Part shown: positions 3,938-55,900 of the stretch, in pieces | How positions within the stretch are numbered: the first letter of the stretch is position 1 | How the letters are laid out: each line of letters begins with the position of its first letter | Origin: Apostichopus japonicus | Lineage: Eukaryota > Echinodermata > Holothuroidea > Aspidochirotida > Stichopodidae | Assembly: GCF_037975245.1 (NCBI RefSeq) | Contig: NC_092566.1 | Span: forward strand, 10,167,501-10,231,500 | Length of the DNA stretch: 64,000 nucleotides | Direction of reading: 5' to 3' | Position numbers and translations under genes: made by a program | Notes under the pieces: model-generated | The model's database searches: none | The model's input: the letters and a program-made list of their open reading frames with translations, nothing else | What the model was told of the DNA's origin: nothing

Positions 3938-6900
3938 TTAAGCGACATGCACTGTAAGCATTATTTATTCATCGCATTGTATTTCTTTTCTTCCACTGAC
4001 TAAGGGCATAGACCTCACTTAGCTCCAGCTTGTCTGTGTGTTTTATGCTGTATAATGTGTTTTCAAGAAAATTTCAGCTTTCATACTCTGAAAATCAACA
4101 CCTATCACTGTAGGTGTCCTACAAAGTACCCTACTTATTTGTATGTAAATATGTACAGTGAGCTGTCAACACTTCTGGTTGTATTTAACAAGTAACTTAA
4201 CTGTTAGTCAATTGATTGAATGGGATTTGAATGGTACAGTAAAATGAAACCAGTAAGATGACAAAATATTGCACCCCACTTCACACATGAACCTACATGA
4301 GTGATCTATTGATTGCTATTAAGGTCAAAGTTATGAAAACGATTTACATGGTTAGAGTCTATAGTACAGTACAGTCTATAGTGCCAACTTACATGCACAA
4401 CTTTGAGTACTTTAAATAATTCAGCTTTAAAATTCAAGATGAGTATTGAACTGAACTTGTACAGGTACTTTTACCTCCACCTCTGCTTCCAGCCCCTCCT
4501 ACCCTTCCACACCTCCCCCCTTCCAAATCCCCCTTTCTAACCTGTTTTTTCTTAGTATTAGTAAGTAGTATCATGTAAGTTTCTTAGTATCATGTAAGCA
4601 CATCAAGTTCAGGCTCACTGTTACTTGCAAATAATGGTTCTGCATTACTTAATTGCACTGTGTACTAAAACATATAATCGACAGTAGTTCAACAACCACT
4701 CACTACATACAATGCCTCTTGGGTTGAACTGTTTTGACATATGCAGAGCTCCCAACGTTTCACTTAACAGCACTTCAACAGTCAACACTGTGCCACATGC
4801 ATGAGTTGGGAGAACTGTGTCATTTAATCAACAATATATGTTGCTATTACAAGCACCACACTGTGTGTATGCATGTATACATGCGTTCTCTTAATCATGC
4901 ACATTAGAATATACCTCTTACACCTCTGGCACTCGTAAAATAGCATGTAAAGCCTAAAAGATGGCAGCATACCATATCTCACAGAACTATATATATATAC
5001 CAAATAGCCTACCTGCTACTCTGCAATACATGTGTGAAGCAAATCACTACCTCAATAAATGACAAAGATACACATGCAACCTACCATGACAACATCATGC
5101 AAATCACCTCTGAATCACTAACAAATTGTTTTGTGTTCTACGCTTCTTTTCTTAAATTAATCGTTTGAATTTCATCTCTGCTGTAACCATACGTTACTCA
5201 TGGAGTCAATCGACACATACGTAGTTCATGTTTACCACCGCACACAGTAGGTCGTTGTACATCTTTGAACTAAATGTACAGAGCTAATGGGGGTTACAAA
5301 AGTAGTGTTGTCAACAGGACGAAAACTGACAAAAATAACGGAATAAGTGGAATAATCAAGTCTGTTTTTGAATCGACACAGTTGAGAGTATCAAGCAGAA
5401 AAATGAAACGTAACGATTGCTAAGATCTCTGGACAGCAAATGATTCTTGAAAATGATAAGCTCTTAGATATTCAGATGGGGTCATCCTCGGAAGGAGCTA
5501 ATGACGAGATTAGGCCTTCAGTACCATTAGGGATTAAAAATGATGTCCAGAGTTCATGACACCTTGTGTTTTTCAACTCGGAAGTAGTGTTTTTACGATG
5601 AGATGCTCCTCTAGTCAGTACCATACCACATCCCTCTTTTTTTGCCATGGTACAGCTACATGTTTTCTATGTATGATCATTCCTTGATTGCACTGAAAAT
5701 TTTAGTCTACTAAATATGCAAAAAAATTCTACACTTCATAGGCTTTCAGAAGCATTTAACTATGTACAAAACTGAACGAACAAAGGCCAGGTTGTCCATT
5801 TCAAAGACTGTTAGCCCAATAGTATGATAAGTACTGTGCATGATAAAACTTTATACCAAATGGATCCACTTTGTTGTTCATGAAAAATTACCCACAAATT
5901 GAGTGAAGTAGTGTACAGGTACTACTTTTGTTCGGATTGTCGCCAAGCTGCAAACAGCTAAAATTATCACTACACAACTTAAAAAGGATCATATGATCAA
6001 TCTGGCTACTGTGGGCAGACCAGCCGAGATACATGTCAAGCAGTAGAGAACTTCAAATTTTAATGAAGCAGTGAAGAGACATGAATGGTTTCAGTGAATG
6101 GAAGGAGCTATGGGATTGGCTTCTGTTTATGAAGGGAGCTTAATAATAGCCTATATCTCTCTACTAGAACACACCATCATCCAGTTCAGTGTTTTCAGGT
6201 TTTAGTGCAGGTGTTCTTCAAATCCTGAAAGTTCAAGCTGGTCCAAAGTCTCTTCAGAATCATTTCAAATTGAGTGAGTTCATAATCAATTTTTAGTCTA
6301 TTTTACACTCGGGAGGTAATACGCATTCCACAAGTTCTCATATCAGCTTTCCAAATTTAATTGACAGATGTTGCTCTGACACAAGAGCTTGACGATGACA
6401 GACATAACATAACTCTGGAATGATTGGTCAATTCTTGCATCATAGCTGTTCACGGAAGGAACTGTTTCAGACACTTGTTCATTGGGACATTGGGTACAGC
6501 TCTTTGCTATCAAAAGTATCTTGACTTCATCCAGGTCCTTTGGTGGGAATCAATAGTATTAGGAACTATTTCCTATAGATCCTACTATAACTAGTGTCAT
6601 TTGTATGCTTTTTATTTTACTTATCAACATACTGTATACAAAGCATTACAGCAACAATTCCTTGAATCATACAGCCTCATAGAACTTAAGGTGTAATCAC
6701 TGATCAACATGTTCCAACTGAAATCAGAAGCTAATTCAGCAATGTATTGAATTTAAGCAACTTGTAGAAAATATACAAGTAATGTTTCCTTCCTTTCCAT
6801 GATATTGCAACTGAATATGAACACAGCACGAATGACACAAGTCGAATGTAGTCCAATCTCTTGATCGTTGTACAGCATATGTACAAGCAATACTTAAGGA

Positions 6901-8159
6901 GTATTGCTGAAGGAATCTTTTAAGTCTTCTAACTGGGCTACTTCTCTGTCCCAAATGAAACTTGTAATCAGCCACAAAAATGTAATAATCTATATCAGCA
7001 AAAATCCTTTGGGTGACCTAGCTGTAGAACTTAGCCTATAACATTATCACTTAAGTTACACAGTATGTTGTTGCTTGTAAATAAAACTGATAGGGCCTAG
7101 GCCTTGTGGGGTGAACATTCCACCTCAAATGTCGATTGTAATGTCCAAAGGGGTTGGAGGTGACCACAACATAGGCTTACAGCTAAGCTAGTTAACCGTG
7201 TTCTGCCTTAAAAGCAGGTAGGGCCCAACTATTTGGTCACTGCATAGGATGTGCAATATCTACGAAGAAGAAATCAGTGTTGCTACTATGTTACTCATTC
7301 AAGTTAGCCAAACCTAAATTCCCTGTGTCACTGTTGCATCATAGCCTACTAATTTTGTAATAGTTTTATGCCTAAAGTAGGCTAATATACCCAAACGATA
7401 GGATTAACTGCAACGTTAGGCTAGGCCTAAACTTTAGTTACAGTTACCCTTTGCTATTTGAAATTAGGCTAGGCTAAAACCAGTAAACAGTGAAGTTACT
7501 GAACTAATTTCACACAGTATCACTGTATTGGACGCTCACATAACACAATTTGTTGTTTGCCATCTATGCTATGGGCATTTCCAATACTGCCACTAGGCTA
7601 GGTTAGTAAGTGTCAGTACAACTATACAAGCCTATGCCTTCATCATTTATGCAATACTATGCTAGCTATTTACTGTTAACACTAGGCTCAAATACAAACA
7701 CAATGAATAATCTCATGAAACAGACGTATACGTTAGGCTACAAAGAAACTAGGTTACTCCATTGTTACGATAACTAGTAACATAAGCGAACATGTTTTCA
7801 TCTAACCTGAGCCTTACCCCCTTCAAATCACTAACCGCGGCATTTCCCCATGGATGATCGAATACTTCCAGTTCAAATCAATACGAGATGGTTACGACAG
7901 ATAACCTTGCAAGCTGTATCGTGTAAAGTAATATCTGCGTATTTATCATGCATGACCTTCTAAACGAAAACAACGAATCATGACCCCTAATGAAAAGCCG
8001 TTATTAATCGCCAACAAACCTCGTCTTGGGTGCCATTCATAAATTTGGAGCACACATCAACAAGCCGTTAATAGAAATACTTACTCTTGGCGAATCTAAT
8101 TCCCAGTGAAGCATGAAAATGGTCGATAATTATACAATTCTAGCCTAGAAAGTAACATT

Positions 8160-8220: not shown

Positions 8221-10229
8221 GAATTATGCATGATCTCACGACATTGTTCCAAATTGTGTACCTCTAACAAGTTTGACAGGGATGAAACTAGAACACAAGC
8301 GTTAAAAATATATTTTCAGTTCTATCTGTCAATAATCAGAACAAATAGGCGCTATTTTCAATCTAAATATTGGTATTAAATTTTGATCATACTAATATTC
8401 TTAACTACCCTGCCTTCCCCAAAGTATTTTCTATTGTGCTATTTCATTGGCCGTATCACAATTATCACCTTATTTGATTGGTTGTTATCTCTAAGACATG
8501 AGGATCTATCAAATTAGGGTAAGTCCCTGAAGTGCCCGTCAAATTCGAAATTAATTTATCACTGACATCACGTACAATACCAATATTTGCAGTAGTTCGA
8601 GGCAGATTGACACCTTAATCTTGTTGCAACATTGTAGGAGGATATTATATTTGGCCAAATGTTTGTATTTAAACCACCTCTAAGACCCTTCATTTGATTC
8701 TAAATGATGCTTCAGATAAATAAGACTACGAATCACTCAACAGTACACATATTGATTGAGTCAATATATTGCTCTTTGAAACCAAGGCTAGCTGTCCCGA
8801 AAGGGCAAGGATCCTCTGTTCGTATGTTCAAACGACATCGTTGTAAGGGGAGAAAACTAACACAAAGATTACATGAACGCCTAGTATATGTGTTGTATAC
8901 TCAGGGAGCTGCTACCTGCAAGCTAAACCCTACTGCAGGTAGGTAGGACGAGTGTCTTATTCAGCCCGGAAGCACAAACTTAAAGGCTAATCTTTGGCCG
9001 TTGCAAATGGTAAAGGCAAATTCATGGTTTTTCTGATTCTCATCGTAAGAAAATTGAAGATATTTTGGTTAGGTATATTGTGTGTACAAGGTTTACTTTA
9101 AAAAACAAACCAATACGCCGCCAAGTCAAGAGGACGACTTCTTCATTGCACCAAAGTACTTTAAATTTTCACCTAGTTGCAGGGACGTAGTCGGGGGGGG
9201 GGCAATGGTAGCGGTCGCTCCCCCCCCCCATTTTGAGTACCCCGAAAAATAAAATTTAACTGAAAGCAGGAAATATCATTAAAGCCCTCTTTTCAGGTTA
9301 AAGGAAGCTAAGAGACCCATCTCAATCATTCCCATGAAAGTTTGTCTGCTACGTAATACAATACTCTCATTATTGTTTATTTCCTGTAACGTGAGAGGCA
9401 TTTTGGTGAAATTGTTTTTTGTACATCATGGCGCCCCTTTAAGTGTAATAATGCTCCTTTTGTGAGAAATGCCCCTTTGAAAATTCTGCCCCATCCCATT
9501 CAAATTTCTGGCTACGTCCATGCCTAGTTGTAAATAATTGCGTTTATTGGGGTTTAGCATAATCAAAAATATATGTGAAATGAATTTCAACGTACATTGA
9601 ATGAGTATTTTTTCCCCTCCCCCTCCCCTCCAACACATACAGACAATTTCCAGCAAGGGATATCCCACGGAGTTGCTGGGCCAGTCAACTAGATCCTTCT
9701 AATTGGCCAAAAGAGTGACAGACAAATTATCAATGTTCAGTTTTATACAATGAACCTCAAATTCCATGAAATATCTTGGCGAATATGCGCAACCCGGAAA
9801 ACAAGAATCGTTTGCGTACAGAATCAGAGGGCGGGCTTACTTGAGCCCCGCTCCCGATAATTCCCGGCCTGCAAAAAAAAAATAATAAAAGCGAGCCAAA
9901 AGGGTATTCGTGTTAATTTCCTTACTGGCTTTTACTTTTGTGCTTGAATTCGTTAAAAGAGAACATGAAATGTTTGAAAATGCCGTATAGCTTCTGCCGC
10001 ACTTGGCGGCCCATGGCCCAGCCTATAATAGCTCACCTCTCCCCGTATACCCAATTATAATATACTCATACGTCTCTGCACATGCTTACCAAAACAGTGA
10101 CTAGACTTGCTTGCTGCTCAAACACCTCAAGTCTGAGACTAGTCGCCTTAAAGGGAAGCAATCCGCTCAATCAATTCATCTAATATAATAGAGATGTTTC
10201 TGATTAAAGGGGACACAAACCCAAGTATC

Positions 10230-10475
10230 ATCTTTGACTTATATTATCATGCCCATATCCTTTATACATGTTATCTTTATTTTTTGGTGGGCTTCTTGTA
10301 CAAGCTACGGCTTCCAAGCCCTTCCACCATTTTCTCTCCGTAATTTCCATTATTTTTCTTTTATATGATTTATTACTTATTAGTTTCATTGCATGGTATT
10401 GTCTTCACCGTCTTATTATTATATAAACATTGTGAGGGAATGGAAAAATATAACTGAAATAAATAAATGAAATGT
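10230..10475 (+). mobile_element. LINE 3' tail fragment
   Basis: Non-coding sequence contains GGCTTCTTGTACAAGCTACG and ends GAAATAAATAAATGAAATG. This arrangement, a short hairpin-bearing 3' region followed by an (AAATA)-type tail, is common in CR1/RTE-like LINE ends. Assignment is by pattern only. Confidence 0.4.
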
Positions 10476-13400
10476 CAGATATGTATGATGTACAACTCCT
10501 TCGCATGCCTTGCACAGCTAAGACACATGTTGTTCCGTATTGGATATAGTTAACGGTTATTTGGTATATTTTTTTTTATTTTTTTTTTGCGGGCGCGGGG
10601 GGAAGTTCCTATTTTCAAGGTAGAATAAAACCAATACCATCTTTATAATAGCCCCCCAAAAAGCCATCTCCATTACAGAAAAAAAAGCATTGTAATAAAT
10701 AAATAACAACATAAAATATTGACCCACATGTGACTCGTAGACGTCATATTTAGACTTGATCAAGTCTTCAGGCTTGTGTAAGAACATAAAATCGGAGATA
10801 TCTCCTAAATGTAATAAAATCTTCTAAACTGTTTATAGTGACATTGTTCATGGCAGTTATGTCTCTATCACATTGACCAATAATAATGTGTACGGTGTGT
10901 CTCCTTCTTTAACTGATTAGATTAGATATTTGTTCCCTTGGGAGATATCCTGGTCGAAACGTCAGCGGGGAGCCGATGGGTGATGTCATAATTTTAGAGA
11001 TGAGACGCTTTAGTTCCCCCAACCCCCTTTTGGACTTTCTTTAGATCTCTTCATGGTGGAAGTACACATTGTCACTGAAAGCAATGCCGTACATTAGCTA
11101 TAAAGTTTTAAAACATTCCTGAAGTCTTCAATCTATACTGTACGAAGGACCATTTAAAACGTGATATATCGGAAACAGCAAATTATTATATTATGACATT
11201 AGGGCATCTACATGGGGGTAGGAAGATTTCACAAAGTGGGGGGGGGGGTACAACATCAGAGGGGCAGTTTATCATTCCACAACCACCACTCGTTATGCTA
11301 TAAACCGATAAACACCGACCATATCATTTGATGTGTAAGTATGCTATAATATTATGGTGCGCTGCAACATTGATTTTTTATTTATTGAGATTGTTTATTG
11401 TTAACCGTGCTACAAAAAAGATATGGGATGCCATTTTAAAAGTAGCATGTACAGACTAAAAATAAATTATTAAAATATAATATTAAAATCAACAAAGGCT
11501 TAAGATATCCAAAAGACAGTTCTTCATCAAAGGGGCACATTTTATTTGCCAGTAGGGAACGTACTTTTGCTATTTTGGAAAAAGGTGGGGAGGGCACGTG
11601 CCCCCAGTGCCCTCCGGCTCCTACCCCATTGTAGACCTACATAGGGCATTCATCATACGCATCCCATATATAGGGTAAAGATTATGGTTAGATGGGCTGC
11701 ATCTTTAAAGTCATTGAGTCATTTGCCGTAAAACATGATTACAAAAAAAAGAAAGGAAATCCCAAAAACTGGTTGCCTATATACGATCAAAATGTAGCTT
11801 TTAATTCAGTAACAACTTAATCCAATCACTCATGGTATATGACGTTCGGTAATCATATTTCGATCTTTCCGGGAATTTTATATAGGAATTTGGAGACTTG
11901 TGAAGATTCATAAAGAATACACTTTTTGCCTTTTTTGCAAATGTTAGCATGTATGATAGTAAATGTAACCCATCAAGCTGTATTTGGTAGGCTATCACTT
12001 GGAAATACGTCAATCATATAATTACCTATCCTTAATAGTCACACGCGATAGGATAACTCACAAGCTACACAACTGAGATAGACCTACAGTTGATTAACAG
12101 CTGCGTTCTACGACACATGACCAAATTAAACATAATTACAAAATATTGTGCGCTTTGACAATATAATTATCATATTTTATAATATATTATATATTTTATT
12201 GATAATAGTGCTTTTTTTTTATATATTTGGAACACAGTTTATGTCTAATTTGCCTCATTATTCAGAGGTGTGATTTCGACATTCTGGTGCACGATATTAT
12301 GTAATACATCATGTTATTATGTAATATAAACTTCCTTTAACGCTTGTTCACGATAAACCCATTAAAAAATTTTGGTAAATTCCAAAAAAATGTAATTATT
12401 ACAGCTGCAAATGTTTAGTTGTGTCTCTCCTACAATTGCTGTCGTATAACTAAATCAGTGGTCAGCAAACTATCCTATACCCATGCAGATACAGTGTCTT
12501 ACATGACTATACCGAGCAGGCACGACCCAACTGACCTCCACCAATCAGAATCGATGCTCCGAATGCATTAATACCAGCTTAGACGTTTGAAGTTTCGTAA
12601 ACTAGCACATTATTTTCCGACAATGTAGAAAAAAAAATTAATGAACCAGTCTTTTAAGAAATAAAAGTTCTATCCCCAACACACACATAAAAAGCCGGAT
12701 AAAACTAAAACATTGGCCAATGTAATAACTGCTTTGAAAACCTTCCCTTGGCAGAAATGGTGGTACGCCCATTCCCCCACCCCATCCACCAAGATCACAA
12801 CGCATTAAAAGTCTCATTTATTCTATAAGTAGGTAACAAACGGTTTTTTATGAATGTAATATAATGGTTGATTATTATTATCAATTTTCTTAAACTTACG
12901 GAAGATGATATAGATATGAAATAAAATGTGGATTTGGATGATTGAGATTCCTGAAAAATGAGACTCCCTCCTGTGTTTGTTTTCACCAATAAATTGAGAA
13001 TTAGCGTGTAGCTATAAAGAATAGTGAAAGGCCAGGGGCCCAATCAAAGATACTCAGGGGTCGGATGAGGGGTTTCACTCACTGGCAGACGGAATATTGA
13101 AAAGCAATCGTAGTTTACATTCTTACATTTACTGTGCGTCATTCACAACCTAAACAGTCGAAAATTCTTCAACATTGTTTCAAAGGTTGAAAAATAGAAC
13201 ACCATATTGAGACTTTATGCAATTTATACCAACATTTCTCAGGGGCACCCTCCCGTTAGGGCCCTACTGTGGACGACATAACAGCTTAGCAACCTCCTCC
13301 TGTACAAAAATGGCAGATGGGTCCATTTTGAGGGGAAGAACGCGGAAACTGATTGTAATAAGCAAGTTCATTCTTGATAGGGAAGTTTTGATATCAAACA

Positions 13401-16660: not shown

Positions 16661-17759
16661 AAACAATAACATCCTTGATCCACCCTTGATATCATATTGT
16701 TATTAAGGTCTTCCACATATCATGCAAAATTAAACAATAATAATATTAAAAAATATCATGGAGGGATAATGATATTGTACTTCTGTAGCAACTAACCAAA
16801 AATTTGAAGAAAATAGTTTGAGAAAAACAGAAAAGGTTAGAAGAAACACTGATTACAACTTAAAGAGATAAAAACTTGATATTGTGCATTTTGAAAATAA
16901 TTATGCTGATAAAGTCCTAGTGGCTCTTATGACATACGCTGTTATTAAATCAAGTTTCTATCTATAAGACATGAAATAAGTTATCCTTGTGATATAAGCA
17001 ACACCTCTCCTGAGGTGAAACAAATAAAGGGTGTCAGATAAGCAATATTTACATAAGTAATTTTTTTTTTTTTAAATCCTTAAAACAATAGAAAAATCAA
17101 TCCGAGAAAATATAAGGTAATGAAATGATTAGAAATATATTGTGAAACAATTTTCTAAAATTTTAAATTTTTATCACAAGAACAAATATGATTTTAACAC
17201 CCTGTTTGCATCGTTGTATTTTTTACACATTTGAGAATACAAACACAAAGTTATCACTCTTGTTCTTCTATAATAATTTAAACCTAGAGCTATCGGCAAA
17301 CATTTTCAAGTCATGGTCTAGTTCGGATAAAATTGTGCAACCAACAACCTTTCAAATCAATAAAAGATAAAGAAACACAGCAAAAGATTAATAAAGTAAC
17401 CAAAAGTCAACAAAAACTTAATTTGCTGCATATTTAAAAAAAAGTTATTATTGCAATGTAACGGCATAACATAAAGTTGAGAGCCAAAGAGTTTAGAAGG
17501 CTTTGCACGATATTATATAAAGGGAAAAAACATTGGATTAAAATAAACTGAATGGTTAAACTTTTGTAAGAATTGGTCAGAGAACATTTTCCTACACTGT
17601 TGAAGGATACAGCAGACATTCTTTCTCTAAATTATAAAGAAAAATATATATATTATCTACTGACACTTCTGAGCTTATGGAGTGATGTATCTATACTTTC
17701 CCAAAATCTTCAACACATTTGAAATATGAACCAGAAAACAAAAACGTTGAGTGGTTCCG

Positions 17760-18500
17760 ATGCCCAAATAATTTATTGTGCAATAATCCATACATGTTAA
17801 TATTCATGAACTTCTGCACACCAAACTGAAGAGGGATTATCTATTGACTGATGTGGCAACATATAAAGGACCGTACCAGGAATCTGTTATCATGTTGACA
17901 AAGTCCATCAAGTAAAATAGTTTAAAAACGGATACCTGCATGAATATTAATGAGGTAAAATTTTATGATCTCATAAACAAGTGTCTATAAACTTACATTG
18001 TATTATCCAAGTACATGTATAAAGCTAAATAAACATAATTTTGAGATTTAGAATTTTATGGTCCCTGATTGATTTTCATGATATGCACACAAAAAACAAC
18101 ATGATTGATTGTATGAATGTAGTGTGACAACCTAATATGCCAATAATGATTGTCATGTGTTTAAAAGCCTTTCCTTACAATTTGATGAATATTAATGACA
18201 TAAAGTTGGAGACGTCATGAAAATGTGCTTATTATGTACCAACAACACCATCGCAATATGAAACGATTTTTACATTAAGCATGTTATGCACCTTCATACC
18301 AAGTATGAGATCTGCCCAAGCTACCAATATTGAGATATAATGTATACAAATGACCTCCACAAAAAACAATAGGCTTCTTGAACTTCTACACACCATATAT
18401 GAAATTGGTTCAACCTTCCCTTCTTCAGATATCGCGTTTACAAGCTGGGCAATTAAAATTATTTAGACATTTTGGCATGCACAACATACACATAATTGAC
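17760..18500. repeat. Dispersed repeat with internal similarity
   Basis: Motifs such as TGAATATTAATGAGGTAAAA and TGAATATTAATGACATAAAG, and CTTCTGCACACCAAACTGAA and CTTCTACACACCATATATGA, recur at about 200-500 bp. ATTAATATTCATAA-type motifs also occur at 20760. It looks like diverged copies of one interspersed family. Confidence 0.4.
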
Positions 18501-31404: not shown

Positions 31405-31639
31405 GAATCCATTTCAGAGACGTTTATAAGACAGAACTTTGCGAATCTCTTTTGCTGTAGGGGAGACGAGGGATCCGCTGGACTTTATTGGGAATCAGTA
31501 CCGACCGGCCATGGCCACTCGATTACGGAGTATTCGCTATGGGAAGCCAGCTGATAACATAACGTCACTCGAACTGTTCTGACTACAATGGCAGGAAATT
31601 CCTTATCTTGCTTTCATCACGAGATCCGATGAGGGGAGA

Positions 31640-32285
31640 CAATGGCATGGTTGGGATGAGGAATGTGGATGGGAACGGGACCGTGAATAGGAACGAGACC
31701 GTGCATAGGAACGGGACCCGTGGATGGGAACAGGGACCGTGGGTGGGAACAGGACCGTGGATGGGAAAGGGAACATGGACTGGAACACTGGCATGGATGG
31801 GAATGGGGACATGGAGACATGAACAGGGACGTGGATGGGAACTGGACCGTGGATGGGGACATGGACTGGAACACATGCATGGATAGGAATGGGGACATGG
31901 ATGGGAATGGGGACATGGATGGGAATGGGGACATGGATGGGAATGGAGACATGGATGGGAATGGAGACATGGATTGGAACAGGGACGTGGATGGGAACTG
32001 GACCGTGGATGGGAATGGGAACATGGACTGGAACACTGGCATGGATGGGAAGTGGGACATTGATGGGAATGGAGACATGGATTGGAACAGGGACGTGGAT
32101 GGGAACTGGACCGTGGATGGGAATGGGGACATGGACTGGAACACTGATATGGATGGGAAGTGGGACATGGTTGGGAATGGAGACATGGATTGGAACAGGG
32201 ACGTGGATGGGAACATGGACTGGAACGTGGATGAGAACTGGACCATGGATGGGAGTGGGGACAAGGATGGAAGGGGGTGGGAAAG
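31640..32285. repeat. G-rich minisatellite, hexamer-based 18 bp unit
   Basis: About 640 bp of degenerate hexamers (GACATG, GATGGG, AATGGG, GGAACA, TGGACT) mostly arranged as 18 bp units such as GACATGGATGGGAATGGG, with higher-order blocks of about 120 bp (compare 31970-32090 with 32080-32200). Strong G bias on the plus strand. The long open frames on both strands are by-products of a period divisible by three. It begins about 240 bp upstream of the SLC25A16 start codon. Confidence 0.9.
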
Positions 32286-32289
32286 GCGG

Positions 32290-33690
32290 GAGACTGCGAT
32301 GGTTTTTGCCAAGGGACTTCCAATTTCAAGAACGAGGCATCCATTCTTTCAAATTGTCACGACTTGAAAGAATCTATTTACTGTATTAAGGTAATAACAT
32401 AACAATTCCATCAGGGTTATTGAAGGAACATAGCCACCATTTTCGTCTTTAGACATTAGACCATGAGCATGCAAACTATGGATTATTCCAGATGTAGGTA
32501 AATTTATCTACAGTTTTTGAGGCTTCCTGATTTCCATAGTCCAAGCTAGCTTTCATGCATTTTGAGTTTAAAGGGTAGGGTCTGGTGGATCCTGGCTCAG
32601 TCCTCATAGACGCTGCTGGGTCGCAGGATTAACATATCATGGCTGAGGGGGACATGGTGCACAAAGACATTCAAGGAACTGGAAGTATATACATGGTAGG
32701 GGGAGGAGAAACATTAACCACATTGTTCATGCATATTTCATGCAATTGTACAACAAACTTTCCTTGAGGATGTTACTGCAATAATGAAAATATTCTTGAC
32801 ACAGGTGTAAATGAAGTCAGAGCAAAATGTATTTACAATTCTATATATCAAACAAATATTACAACAACTAAAACTTGAGAGGATTATTGTTTTTCTGCCT
32901 TCAGGGATGGATATTTTAACTGGAAGAAACTGGATCAAGCAAACTATGGTTAGAGCATCCTGAGATTTCCATTATCTCACTGGACTAGTGATGTGTCAGG
33001 AGTGGACCATCTCTTTCTCGTCGAGTTCTGAATGTTTGAACAATCTCGCCTCAACACTGAATCTGTATTGCCCTTAAATATGGTAGAGAGTATGCTCACT
33101 TATAGTCAGACTTTTAGCACTCTGTACATTGCTACTCTTTAAAAATGATTTTCCCTCTCTGAAACAAAGGAGTACAAGAGTAACAGACCCTCTTCATTTC
33201 ACCCTCCCCCAAACCAGTCCACAAGTTATTTGTACAAACATTTTGCAAAATCAGCCCATTAACATTTTGGAGAAGAAACATATGACATATGTCTTAATCT
33301 TCAATTGATTTTTCATTGACAGAAATAACCAATTAATGACCGTATAAATGTTAGCTTGTGTAAAACCTCAAACATTTGTCTGTTTAAAGTATGAAAAATT
33401 TAAACTGCATAAACAAAAATTAGAATGTTTATTCACAAATTCAGAAGACAAAACTTCACTTGAGATGTGCAGTCATGCCCTCCTCAGGTATTTTTACTTA
33501 TTTTATTTTATCTTCTCTTATTTATCTTATTTTTACTTATCTTCTTAACCATCTTTCAAATCCCACTTTGTTACTACAGCAGCAGGAATGATTTGCTACT
33601 TTTGTAAATCAAACCACTGAAGAAGTTGCAATGCTTGTCCAGTTCCTCCTCTTCATATACTCTCATCTCAGACTTAGCCGTTTTTCCAGT
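32290..33690. other. Spacer between SLC25A16 and the DYDC1-like gene
   Basis: Unique AT-rich DNA with no exon-like sequence; a T-rich TTATTTTATCTT tract lies at 33500-33545. Confidence 0.5.
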
Positions 33691-49918: not shown

Positions 49919-52900
49919 CTAAATCTGGTAGTTTCTAAATTTCCTCAACATGTCGTTTCCTGTGTCTCGTCTCCATCCAAAATCTGTATGAGCAGAAGAA
50001 AAACAAGTACTGCTAATACTGCTAATAGTACTGCTAATGGACGTTAAATATGAATCTAAGAGACTGACTTCGGTTAGCTTGCGGCTTTGAGAAGCCAATG
50101 AGGCTTCTTTGCGAGTTCCTGCTTGCAGGAGGATCTAAATAACATACATACATACATACAATACAGGTTTTGTGCAAGACGATGACGATTCTAACACGCA
50201 TTTTCATTCATCCACAGTTAATATGTTATGAGTAGCAATTTTCACACATAATTGAATGGGGTTTTACAAGAACAATATCAATAGTCGCTTTTCCACCCCG
50301 CAACAAATGTTTGATGAAAGGACACTTTTTGCATAGCTATCATCCACAGTAGACTAATAAATAGACCACAATAGGTTAATATGAAGGTCTCACGATGGTG
50401 ATGCTACTGGTCATATAATTCGGAGATCAAACTAACAATTTATCATTGTCTTACTAACAGGAGGGCAAAATGTGGACTGCATGTGGCTTATAGCAAAGTT
50501 TCTTCAGCCTGAGAGTTTTTCAAAACCCTATTAAAGAATTCCATGGATCATTATGAAATCACAGCAATGCTCTTCCCAAATCATTAATCAAATAACCATG
50601 CAGTTTCGTCGAATGACAGAGAGTAGAGGCATGAAATATATATACACCTTTGGGATATAGCATGCATAACCGGCCTACCTGTGATTTGATAATCAACATT
50701 ACAGATGGACAATGCCGATATAGAACTATTTTCCCCTTTGTAATAATTTCCATTTTTCATTTTCATGGGGATAGAGAACATCCAAAAGATCGAGGCCCGC
50801 CAATTGAGTGCAAACTTTCACTGTGGCCCACTACATTAATTTTCATGCCCACCTCTTGTCTAACTACTTTAAATGGCAGTATCGACTTGCATGACAGATA
50901 CCATGTCCTCAAAGAGATCTTTTTTGCATCATTTCAACTCCTAATTACCATACAGTACACCGACGTCCTGAGACAGTGAAATTTAGCCCCCTTACCCGCA
51001 TGTGAATTGGTTTAATAGCCGTTTTTTTCTTCTTAATTCTGCTGAAAGATTTAGCGACACATTATGATCACAGGTGGGATCAACTACAGGCACAATAGTT
51101 ATCCTTTATTTATAGCATGTTTTCATAGCTACTACAGAGGGATGGAAATGTGGGTACTGCACCTCCTTACTGTACATTATGATATTTTAAAGACCAACTA
51201 TGGAGACTTTTCGATGAACATAAAATCCCACCATTTTTCATGTATGTAATCCTTAACTCACTCCAATTACATTGCTGTAATTAACTTTACCAATTTCGGA
51301 CGTTAAATATGTGAAAAATGGGAAGAAAAGTCAGCTTTTTATGAAACCTATTTCAGACATTCCTGAAACATTCCGAAGACATCAGGTGACCATGTGACGT
51401 CACTGTTTGTATACCTCACTCACAACAATACTTTTAGTGTGTAAAGTTGTATACTTGAGCTGCCAAAAACATCAACGATATTACTCCTTTTCCCCCGAAA
51501 TGCCACAATTCTGTGTTGTTGGAGGTTGCAGTTATACCTCACCCAACAAAAGCATCAGCTTTTTTAGATTTCCGAGTAAAAGAACCGACGTAAAACGCCG
51601 CAGACTTTGGATCAACTTTGTGAGATCCACGCGGAAAGATTTTTCAGCACCCGGAGTATCTCATGTCCACATGCATGACCCTGCCTCTGTGTATGCTGCA
51701 CATTTCTCATTCTGCGAAAATTATATACTTTCGACAGCTGTGTCGGACATAGCTAATGTAAAATTGACCCTTTCAAGTCTCCTCGTAAACAAGCTCTGGA
51801 CGTCCTTACATGTAACATTATATCACGCAATTGACAGTATATATTTATTGTAAGAGATGACCGTGTATATACCGTGACTAGGCTAGCATTGTTAGTACAT
51901 GTAGTGAGTTACAACTCACAGCATGTGTAAATAGTCATGTTAGAATTTCATCGCATTTATCTATTTCATTTGTTGTATTCCAGTATCGTGAGTTCGTGAT
52001 ACATTGTGTATATTGTCCGTTATGTTTATTCCGGCATCTGCATGGTCCAAGGAGTTGAATAAAAACGGTTCTATGTAGCGATCGGACGTTTTATTTCATT
52101 AGTGACTGTCTTGTGATTGTGGGATGTTACTGGTCAAGGCCTGTTTAAACTAGACCTAACTCTATGGAATTACACAGAGTCACGGTAGTATTTCGCCCAG
52201 GATTGAACGAGAAACGTGGATTTGTATATTCACTGCTAAATTTGGTTTATTGAAAGGATACTTTTTCTGTGTTTGTACTTATTATTACGAGTATATTAAA
52301 ACGAGTAAACTATGTTCAGCTGAAGCTTAGTCATGTATATGCTACCCTGGTCGATTCGGGTCAGCGTCTTCTCGTAGTCACGGTTGTTCGATTATGTTTA
52401 GTGTCTTTTTGGTAATTCGTTGACAGCAACGTAAGCCATTTTCCCGTCACATATCACGCATGAGGCATCTTTTAGGTCTATTCTTCTGTTCAGTTTACGG
52501 TATCTTGCGATCAAATTGTATTACCGAATCGCCAAGCTGCTTGCATGTTCTACAGTATATTGTACCGTACGGACCTATTGACGCTCGCACTATGTAAAAG
52601 ATGCTTCCATTTGGGTGGAAATTTTGCTAATAAAATAACCAATTTAACTAAATTTTCTTCTTAAAATTGTCTTAAAACTATTTGTTTACCTTCATGTGTT
52701 CTTGTTTTAAGCTAACAGCATTTCAAATGCTCGAAATTGGAAGTCAAATACAGTACAATTGTTCGCTATCTGTGTATAAACAGTGCCTATATCAGCGTTT
52801 GATTTTCGCGGTATACAAACAATGACGTCACACGGTGACCAGAGGCTCCTTTGGGTCAATCTCTGTTTTCAGACATTCCAGAGGTTCATGTCACGTGACT

Positions 52901-55900
52901 ACCCAAAATGTCCATTTTCGTGGTCCTTTTTGATGGGTTATAGTAGGTTTTCGAAGACTACTTTTTACACATGTTGATTATGGGTATGTTAACTCCCAAA
53001 TTAATGGAAAATCCCCCCAAAAAATTTGTCTCCATAGTTGGTCTTTAAGACCGCAGAAAACATTCAGTCCAGCAGCAATAAAGGCTGCACAATACATTAA
53101 ATCTTGCAAAGAATAATATATAAAGATGAAATCGAATTCACTGCATCTCTTTCTGTTTGTAAATATCTGAAATTTCATACTTTATATTGGGCACAAACAA
53201 CTATGACATTCATCCAAAATTCAATTTATGATATATTGTGTTTACAAGGTTTTCAAATTTGTGCAATCTGCTGACCTCAAATGAAACAATATGGTTCTTC
53301 TACCCAATATGGGACATCCACATAATCATCCAAGATTCCTTCTTTTGAAATATTGTGTTTTTTCAAGATTTCAAACATTGACCTCTGCTGACCTCAAATG
53401 ACCTTTCACCTCTACTAAAACCAATAAAGTTCATCTACTCAATATCTGCATAGTAAGCATGGGATTCATCCAAGTTTCCATTCTTGAGATACTGTATCCT
53501 GCTTAAAACTAAAGTGCAATACATACGCAATGCTGACCCATACACATGCTATTACAACTGCGTAGGTTTAGGAATGAAATAAAAATCGGCGTACTAATTT
53601 ACCTTCAAAGAAAGGTGCTCCCCCCATCTTGGACAGACTTGGTGTGTAGCTCTCTTGTGTGATGAATGAAATATCATGCTTGGGTGGTGAGCAATCTTCT
53701 AATGCTGGCTGAGGTTTCTTCTTAGTAGCCCAATGAAGTGACTGCAAAATACAAAGATATATATTAAATATAAGTTTCATAAATCTTCACATCATCCATA
53801 CATTTCCTACAGTACTGACAATATATTCAATTTTTTATATAGCGCTTTATACCAGCAATAGGTCTCAAAGGGCTATACAGGTGTTATGTTACCCCTGGTC
53901 AATGATAACCTGTCCCAGAGACAATCCCTCCAGGCTGCAGTTATGTACTGCGCCGAATGACAAGTTACCACACAGGTACCCATTTAACCCCAGGGTGGAG
54001 AGAGGCAAGTGAGATAAAGCATCTTGCCCAAGAACACAACGAAATGAACTAGGCAATCCTTGGATCACAAGTCCGAGCCTTAACCAATTGTCCACCAAGC
54101 TCAAAGATGAGTATTGATAAATAGAAAGTAGTTGGTTATGTAATATTTTTCTTTCTTACCATCATACACTGAAATGATGATTCACATACCACCGTAGGTT
54201 AATTGAAGTCTGTAACTTGCGTAAACCAGACCTTAAAGTACATATTATTCCTGTTCGTCGACAATATGCAATAAATGATGACCGTCCCAATAATCAAAAT
54301 TCAGTCAGTAAAGTCATGTACATGGAATAATGAAAATTGCTTGTGTAATATGACTTGATGCCAATGCAATGGATTGGCTCAAAGAACATCTTGTTTTACA
54401 ATATCTTTCCCTACCTGAGACATTTCATTGCCTAGCTAAAGGTCACCATATATGCCAGAAGTAAAGATAATAATAAATAAATAATAAATACAATGCTTGA
54501 TATAGCGCTATTCCAAATATCATAGCACTTAACAACAAAAGAGAACAAAAACACAATTGTCTTTGAAATTGTGGAAGAATCAGAGCCTCAAGGTGAGTAC
54601 TCTTGAAAACTTCTGGTGACCTTTAATCCCGCTGAATGTCATAAAATGATTTTGAATGTCTCAACATCCAGGAAATTTATTCTGAAGAACGTTCACAATG
54701 TTATCCAGCAAAGCTATGAGACAAATAGTTCTTGTGTTCTTACGACTAAAGCTTCACAAGGCTCTGGATATATGTGCACAATGTTCTCCCCACGATACTT
54801 ACCATACGTGCATGTCCATGCGTTGCTAACCAAGTGCTGTATCTGATGGTCAGACCACTCCTTCTCCATTTATCGTAGTCTGCTCTAGATTCCTCGTTCC
54901 CCAATACTTCACGAGCTTTCTGAATCTTGCTGAATCTTTCTGCTGCTTCTGGATCATTTGGTCTCTTGTCTGGATGGCATTCTCTAGCCAATGCTTTGTA
55001 CTCAGTCATGATTTGTTCCATCTGAACAAGGAATTATGGGAATTTTATGGGAATTCAAAAAAGGAGAAGAAAGGAAAGAAAGCAGGCATAATGGCTATGA
55101 TTCCAACAAGCAAGGGTAAAAAGAAGAAAGTACCAAATGGGCTTTATTATTTTCAAAAAGTAGAGCCCTTTACACAGGGACATTTTTAACATGGGGGGGG
55201 GGGGGCTACTGTACTTTGACCAAAATGGGAGCTGATATAGAAAACATCAGCCTGTACATTAAAAGGCCACCAATTATCCACAATCAGGGAAATTTTCACA
55301 GAAGAAGTAACAGAATTTGCCGTGGGATAGACAAAACTGGAGGTACAAAAGCCCACTGACGATTTTTATCAAGAACAAAATAATTTCCATTCAAGAAAAA
55401 TCAAGAATATTACTTAAACACACAAGTGATCATTGTCCTACAGTAATGAGTAGATGGCAGACACAAGAGGTTATGTTCTCAACACCTACAACAATTACTG
55501 TACAAAGTGGTTTGCATAATATCCTAGCAGATGGATAGGGCACTAGTTTAAGTAAAATACAATCGCCCATATATATTTTGAAGTGTTTAAGGGCGCTAAA
55601 TGAGAGAGAATGGTTATTAAAAATTGCCTGGCGCTCGCTTACTTTTACCCTTGCCAACAAATGACCTCAAGGCTGTAAAGCCTTTTGGGAATTTTTCTGC
55701 ATTTACAATAACTCATGGTTGTATAATTAGCACATATTCTAGAACATACTAGTATCTACAATAACATGTTACACCAAGGCTAGGCGACTGACTTAACAAA
55801 AAGTCCATAACTGATTTTGTCCAGATGGCAACTACCAAGAACCACTGCAACACAACCAATATCGAGTTAGGCCTATGCTAAGCCGAACGACTTACCGTCG

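Follow-up and report, generated by a model that had tools for sequence, protein, structure and literature searches.

A nonautonomous Kolobok element in a sea cucumber DNAJC12-like locus: probable internal deletion of a KolX-encoding parent type, with a broken THAP domain

Kolobok transposons have termini defined as 5'-RR and YY-3', and their Kol0 group is described as encoding a second protein, KolX (PMC9587614). In Xenopus, full-length Kolobok elements are reported to span 6.8-13.9 kb, and the nonautonomous TTAA elements T2-MITE (miniature inverted-repeat transposable element, MITE) and Xmix are attributed to Kolobok (PMC6004289). Among P elements, the P-MITEs of Anopheles gambiae are reported as deletion derivatives that occur beside their P masters in one genome (PMC1562414), and the P-element repressors (the 66-kDa product and KP) are described as truncated transposase products of defective or alternatively spliced elements (PMC7776569). 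Here we describe an element at 51187..53048 (+ strand; 1862 bp with both TTAA) in a 64,000-nucleotide stretch of the sea cucumber Apostichopus japonicus (contig NC_092566.1, positions 10,167,501 to 10,231,500), which we call the window. From its termini, target duplication, genomic copies, long parent type, deletion junction and neutral pattern of change, we consider it very probable (roughly 0.94) that the element derives by internal deletion from a KolX-encoding Kolobok and that the half THAP domain it carries is an unused relic.

The window element shares TTAA duplication and AG...CT termini with the Kol0 lineage, and a long parent in the same genome has the THAP domain, D-D-E, DxxH and H2CH motifs and a KolX-like protein resembling the P2X7 ballast; unlike that lineage, the window element encodes neither transposase nor KolX. 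It resembles T2-MITE and Xmix as a nonautonomous TTAA element, but its family is long (1.86 and 1.63 kb), keeps half a THAP exon and has the terminal motif AGACC, whereas T2-MITE is reported to have AGGRR (PMC6004289). With the P-MITEs it shares the coexistence of deletion derivatives and master, although these belong to another superfamily. The result is a case resolved down to the deletion junction itself, in which a large nonautonomous Kolobok family shares its genome with a long parent type that encodes KolX.

TTAA target site duplications bound the element at 51187..51190 and 53045..53048. Inverted-repeat comparison places the left terminal inverted repeat (TIR; AGACCAACTATGGAGAC, starting with 5'-AG, an RR) at 51191..51207 on the + strand and the right TIR, its perfect complement, at 53028..53044 on the − strand. 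The arms 51187-51207 and 53028-53048, each TTAA plus a 17-bp inverted terminus, are 21 bp long and 100% complementary, which bears out the original prediction, made from the letters of the window, of a single transposon with TTAA ends and perfect 17-bp inverted termini. The AG...CT pair adjoining TTAA has the RR...YY form of Kolobok, unlike piggyBac. About 200 bp inward of each end lies a 34-bp subterminal inverted repeat: the left one (51382..51415, + strand), containing TGACGTCA, is 88% complementary to its right partner (52810..52843, − strand), and the 10.8-kb parent has a matching pair at its two ends. These subterminal repeats are candidate transposase binding sites.

A search of the 671.6-Mb assembly by termini, as the original prediction had proposed, found the 21-mer 652 times when up to 3 mismatches were allowed; a reversed control was found 16 times. 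Searching with the element DNA gave at least 45 matches (40 of 464 first-look candidates scored), 30 of which span query positions 1-1862, the window copy included. TTAA stands at both element ends in 37 of 46 fetched loci, and the remaining 9 are cut or mutated at one end. Forty copies were aligned (7 of 47 being excluded for large indels) and diverge by 1.2-6.6% from their majority consensus, with the window copy at 1.5%; a second, younger subfamily of 1.63 kb comprises 11 copies that lie 0.3-1.4% from their own consensus. For one of the 1.63-kb copies, L071, an uninterrupted target with a single TTAA is present in a related repeat beside copy L012, a paralogous empty site whose surrounding repeat differs by small indels between the two places. 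Flanks were compared for L001-L014 and the window only; flanks are common to L001, L002 and L050, and a right-flank string to L019 and L037. The family is a large nonautonomous one of a known kind, very probably made up of internal-deletion derivatives, and it has spread to hundreds of places. Two 3.46-kb copies (L001 and L002) were considered as a candidate partner and rejected, being the 1.86-kb element plus an insert of about 1.6 kb. Copies L047 and L048, picked for a common 115-amino-acid frame, turned out to belong to the nonautonomous 1.63-kb subfamily, and in L049 a long frame adjoins a simple-repeat stretch.

The original prediction suggested looking for an autonomous partner, and a long coding relative is present in the same genome. 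A profile search for THAP domains (PF05485; at least 145 matches, with 150 of 557 candidates scored) found, on contig C7, a full-length THAP lying 315 bp inward of a perfect TIR. This element (positions 206-10988 of L051+L053) is 10.78 kb long with TTAA on both sides; its left TIR is perfect, and its right TIR has 2 mismatches, a variant common to most of the fetched 1.63-kb copies. Its THAP matches positions 1-86 of 87 of PF05485 (E 1.1e-14) and has the C2CH ligands, the P/W/F residues and an AVPTIF-like box, with CSVH and AVPSL in frame. The motifs GGDARNDSPG, IITDRH, FDVWH and NVETYH fall in the conserved D, D, DxxH and E columns of an alignment made against five single-exon relatives found elsewhere in this genome rather than published Kolobok sequences, and an H2CH zinc finger (INHVYW...H...H...CEH, parent 5235-5519, aligned with same-genome relatives) lies between DxxH and E. 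PF20700 matches the parent's catalytic exon weakly (E 0.0076, under the cut-off) and is above cut-off in 3 of 4 relatives scanned.

The second protein lies on the parent's minus strand. There, L051 6966-7172 matches P2RX7_C (PF20478) over the cut-off (E 8e-8), and a frame at 7616-7846 gives a weak but collinear match to the same model. The stretches 7840-7670 and 7139-6981 also match the KolX open reading frames L062-L064, which were taken from P2RX7_C-positive places of the same genome (best E 6e-13, for an 11.1-kb subject). A PDB search with the 7616-7846 exon did not find P2X7, nor did Pfam scans, at the thresholds applied, of three frames in the neighborhood of the KolX gene, although the C-terminal exon of this gene does match PF20478. 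Searches with PF05485 and PF20478 found nothing in any of 14 control genomes. A second protein similar to the P2X7 cytoplasmic ballast is a mark of the Kol0 lineage, and by its predicted products the parent is a two-protein, KolX-encoding, Kol0-like Kolobok, in agreement with the superfamily originally assigned to the window element. In the C7 copy, five exon stretches (1578 bp) are open.

A search with the catalytic exon gave 88 matches (118 of 118 candidates scored): 2 close ones (100 and 98% identity), 2 at 64-67% and 84 more distant. The pair at 64-67%, L058 (C17:8080800-8087600) and C8:34570675-34574974, are elements with both a THAP and a catalytic exon, and possibly represent a sister Kolobok family. 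In the relatives L055-L061 nothing convincing was found for the family terminus, the best being a site with 5 mismatches in L058. Dozens of listed places carry a near-identical weak P2RX7_C match (PF20478 positions 143-192, about 30 bits, with one TGA and often a 97-amino-acid frame), and look like another repeated element with only a C-terminal KolX fragment.

The 1.86-kb consensus matches the parent at its two ends only. Consensus positions 1-481 correspond to parent 206-676 (93% identity), 479-538 to 9847-9906 (83%), 572-1133 to 9907-10490 (89%) and 1366-1860 to 10492-10988 (94%). The trinucleotide GCC at the junction is common to parent 674-676 and 9847-9849, and about 9.17 kb of the parent is absent. 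The element has lost the catalytic core, as originally proposed. In the window the junction falls at 51664..51665, where the GCC bases seen in the consensus have been lost together with a private 8-bp deletion. To its left are the N-terminal 55 codons of the parent's THAP exon (51500..51664, + strand), in which C-x4-C, P and W are kept; to its right is the part derived from the parent's right end (51665..53048, + strand; parent coordinates 9847-10988). Within this part, a segment of about 239 bp (52315..52554, + strand) is present in the 1.86-kb subfamily and has no counterpart in the C7 parent copy or the 1.63-kb subfamily. The same segment also occurs in the older-looking copy L050.

The joint lies inside the THAP exon. 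Derivatives read MPQF...SAPGVSHA and then run into right-end sequence, where the parent goes on with EHVKVCSVHF...AVPSL; because the deletion joint cuts the domain, the zinc ligands C-x2-H (CSVH) and the C-terminal box (AVPSL) are absent from the derivatives. The history we propose would begin with a parent whose THAP/DDE transposase gene extends over several exons from the left end, with the KolX gene on the other strand. Loss of about 9.17 kb at the 3-bp microhomology would then have brought the interior of the THAP exon up against sequence close to the right end. The shortened element would have retained, at each end, the 17-bp terminus next to TTAA and the subterminal repeat, presumably what a transposase supplied in trans needs, and could have been mobilised by that of the parent. 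The THAP piece would have been retained through its position beside the left end and not through use.

We then asked whether the THAP half could nevertheless be of use to the element. The original prediction had proposed that the DNA-binding domain seems to have been kept and that a THAP-only product could act as a trans-repressor of autonomous relatives. On this model the protein would bind the element's own ends and repress relatives much as small P elements do. The frame does match THAP, and small P elements are reported often to encode repressors, for example the 207-amino-acid KP protein (PMC7776569). In the window the frame starts with an ATG at 51500 and encodes 117 amino acids, with its stop at 51851-51853, but it matches PF05485 (E 1e-7) over model positions 1-58 of 87 only. 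The 66-kDa P product is described as having a THAP DNA-binding domain (PMC7776569), whereas in the window family the THAP itself is cut, at a joint just after SAPGVSH(A) and ahead of the C-x2-H ligands and the AVPTIF-like box, so the complete domain required of a THAP-only repressor is not there. An in-frame C-x2-H is found in 0 of 54 short copies, the window copy included; among 56 sequences (these copies, the parent L051 and the long copy L052) it occurs after residue 50 in one, the parent. This tally left out seven family loci in which the THAP match was below 70% or missing.

The copies also mutate as if the frame were not in use. Private substitutions in the 81-amino-acid consensus frame of the 40 aligned copies comprise 85 nonsynonymous, 29 synonymous and 5 stop changes (71/24/4%), against 72.5/23.8/3.8% expected without selection, and their density is 0.49 per site within the frame versus 0.40-0.44 outside it. 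The THAP-half frame thus looks to be evolving neutrally among copies. An identical stop after WINF is present in 8 of the 40 aligned copies, which amplified all the same, and 19 of the 56 sequences stop before 75 amino acids. Frames held in common might be taken to favor a product, with exactly 81 amino acids from the ATG in 23 of 56 sequences and a 115-amino-acid open frame in about 93 of 150 listed rows (hand count). However, recent common descent fits the 115-amino-acid frame as well as use does, and open frames in copies as young as those of the 1.63-kb subfamily need no selection. The longer frame of the window copy is private to it: its non-THAP read-through tail and stop (51665..51853, + strand), in DNA from the parent's right end, are opened by the 8-bp deletion, which is seen in 0 of the 38 other aligned copies covering the site (L045 is without the site and outside this count). 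Two private substitutions near the deletion change AANV to AAHF. Because no short copy has an in-frame C-x2-H and the private mutations look neutral, the frame is best regarded as a relic, and a role as a repressor is unsupported and highly unlikely. Truncated first exons in deletion derivatives need not be functional repressors; this THAP half looks like neutral debris beside a required end. As to the signals of its own that were originally ascribed to this frame, the THAP match stands in its truncated extent, and the polyadenylation motif carries little weight, with AATAAA at 52058 and 52629 on the + strand against 1.06 expected from base composition.

Two other groups of similar THAP matches in the genome are truncated as well, matching PF05485 positions 1-62 (often with 89-amino-acid frames) or 18-62 (69-amino-acid frames, one TAA). 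Truncated THAP relics may recur across several nonautonomous families of this genome.

Several observations weigh against our interpretation of the element as an unused derivative of this parent. The gene model of the C7 copy rests on homology, its open frame having been checked for the five exon stretches only (1578 bp), and one of its two KolX stretches is below the Pfam cut-off (E 0.81). A second long copy, on C16, has three stops in the five exon stretches, and its right end was not found in the fetched stretch. The C7 copy is without the segment of about 239 bp and smaller segments, and identity over the matched pieces is 83-94%; judged by these differences, the 1.86-kb subfamily did not descend directly from it. 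Finally, parent and consensus differ over 56 THAP codons by 5 synonymous and 3 nonsynonymous codon changes; these are small numbers, and they suggest that constraint acted somewhere on the path between the two, probably in the autonomous lineage.

Two further explanations fare worse than a repressor. A piggyBac relative with a captured THAP exon would also duplicate TTAA, as piggyBac is reported to do (PMC9587614), but the termini are 5'-AG...CT-3', the RR...YY form stated for Kolobok (PMC9587614), and the long element that shares these termini has Kolobok-type catalytic motifs and KolX and is free of piggyBac, leaving this explanation a negligible probability. It is scarcely credible that the frame represents a THAP gene of the host or an exon domesticated at the DNAJC12-like locus: Xenopus is reported to have many domesticated Kolobok transposases, most with DNA-binding motifs kept (PMC6004289), but here the domain is broken, the long frame comes from private changes and the copy is a typical one at 1.5% from consensus.

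Beyond its origin, the remaining interest of the family lies in its recent amplification and in a mosaic history. We compared the 1.63-kb consensus with the ends of the parent and with the 1.86-kb consensus, and found 87 informative sites, of which 51 agree with the parent and the other 36 with the 1.86-kb subfamily. These sites are grouped: 11 of 14 at 52-301 agree with the parent, all 23 at positions 356-537 of the 1.63-kb consensus, across the junction, agree with the 1.86-kb subfamily, all 16 at 590-895 agree with the parent, and those beyond are mixed (24 of 34 with the parent). The flanks of the 1.63-kb consensus are parent-like (96.7-96.8%), and it has the parent's right-TIR variant and missing segments in common with it. 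A run of 23 was reached in 0 of 200,000 shuffles (longest 18), and a run of 8, left after sites 472-537 to the right of the junction were removed, in 167 of 200,000; neighboring sites are not independent, so the shuffle result is no strict probability.

This pattern is most simply read as the result of exchange, in which sequence passed between parent-like elements and old nonautonomous copies, for instance when gaps left by excision were repaired. To the left of the junction, a weaker alternative is that the THAP exon of the parent copy itself diverged faster. A precedent is reported in Anopheles gambiae, where one composite MITE combines the ends of two subfamilies and repair of gaps from an ectopic template was proposed (PMC1562414); here, the exchange would have taken place within one family and around a common deletion junction. 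Taking exchange further, we suggest tentatively, and with somewhat less than even confidence, that lineages hand the deletion junction on to one another as a heritable module and acquire new ends in the process, an excised autonomous copy being repaired from an old nonautonomous one. If so, a master would be turned into a fresh parasite with up-to-date ends, and parasites would have a means of following changes in the transposase. How nonautonomous elements may renew their ends can be tested directly in the mosaic subfamily.

The host locus resembles the DNAJC12 gene originally named. A minus-strand J-domain exon at 54803-55021 has DNAJC12 as its best match (2ctq, E 5.9e-22, the second best being at 7.5e-11). 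Two other minus-strand stretches, one a frame near 53735 and the other, near 49951, bearing a C-terminal LRKFRNYQI*, are presumably further DNAJC12-like exons by their motifs. These exon-like frames would place the element in the intron preceding the last exon of a minus-strand DNAJC12-like gene, to which the THAP frame runs antisense. At 53226-53400, adjoining the right flank of the element, are direct repeats with a spacing of 117 bp. Elsewhere in the window, 50037-50083, 17729-17870 and 13145-13204 match flanks of copies L008, L009 and L010 and are other dispersed repeats. The stretch at 31586-32386 has long frames on both strands with short repeat units (DMDGNG and HPCPHSH types), a coding-like tandem repeat.

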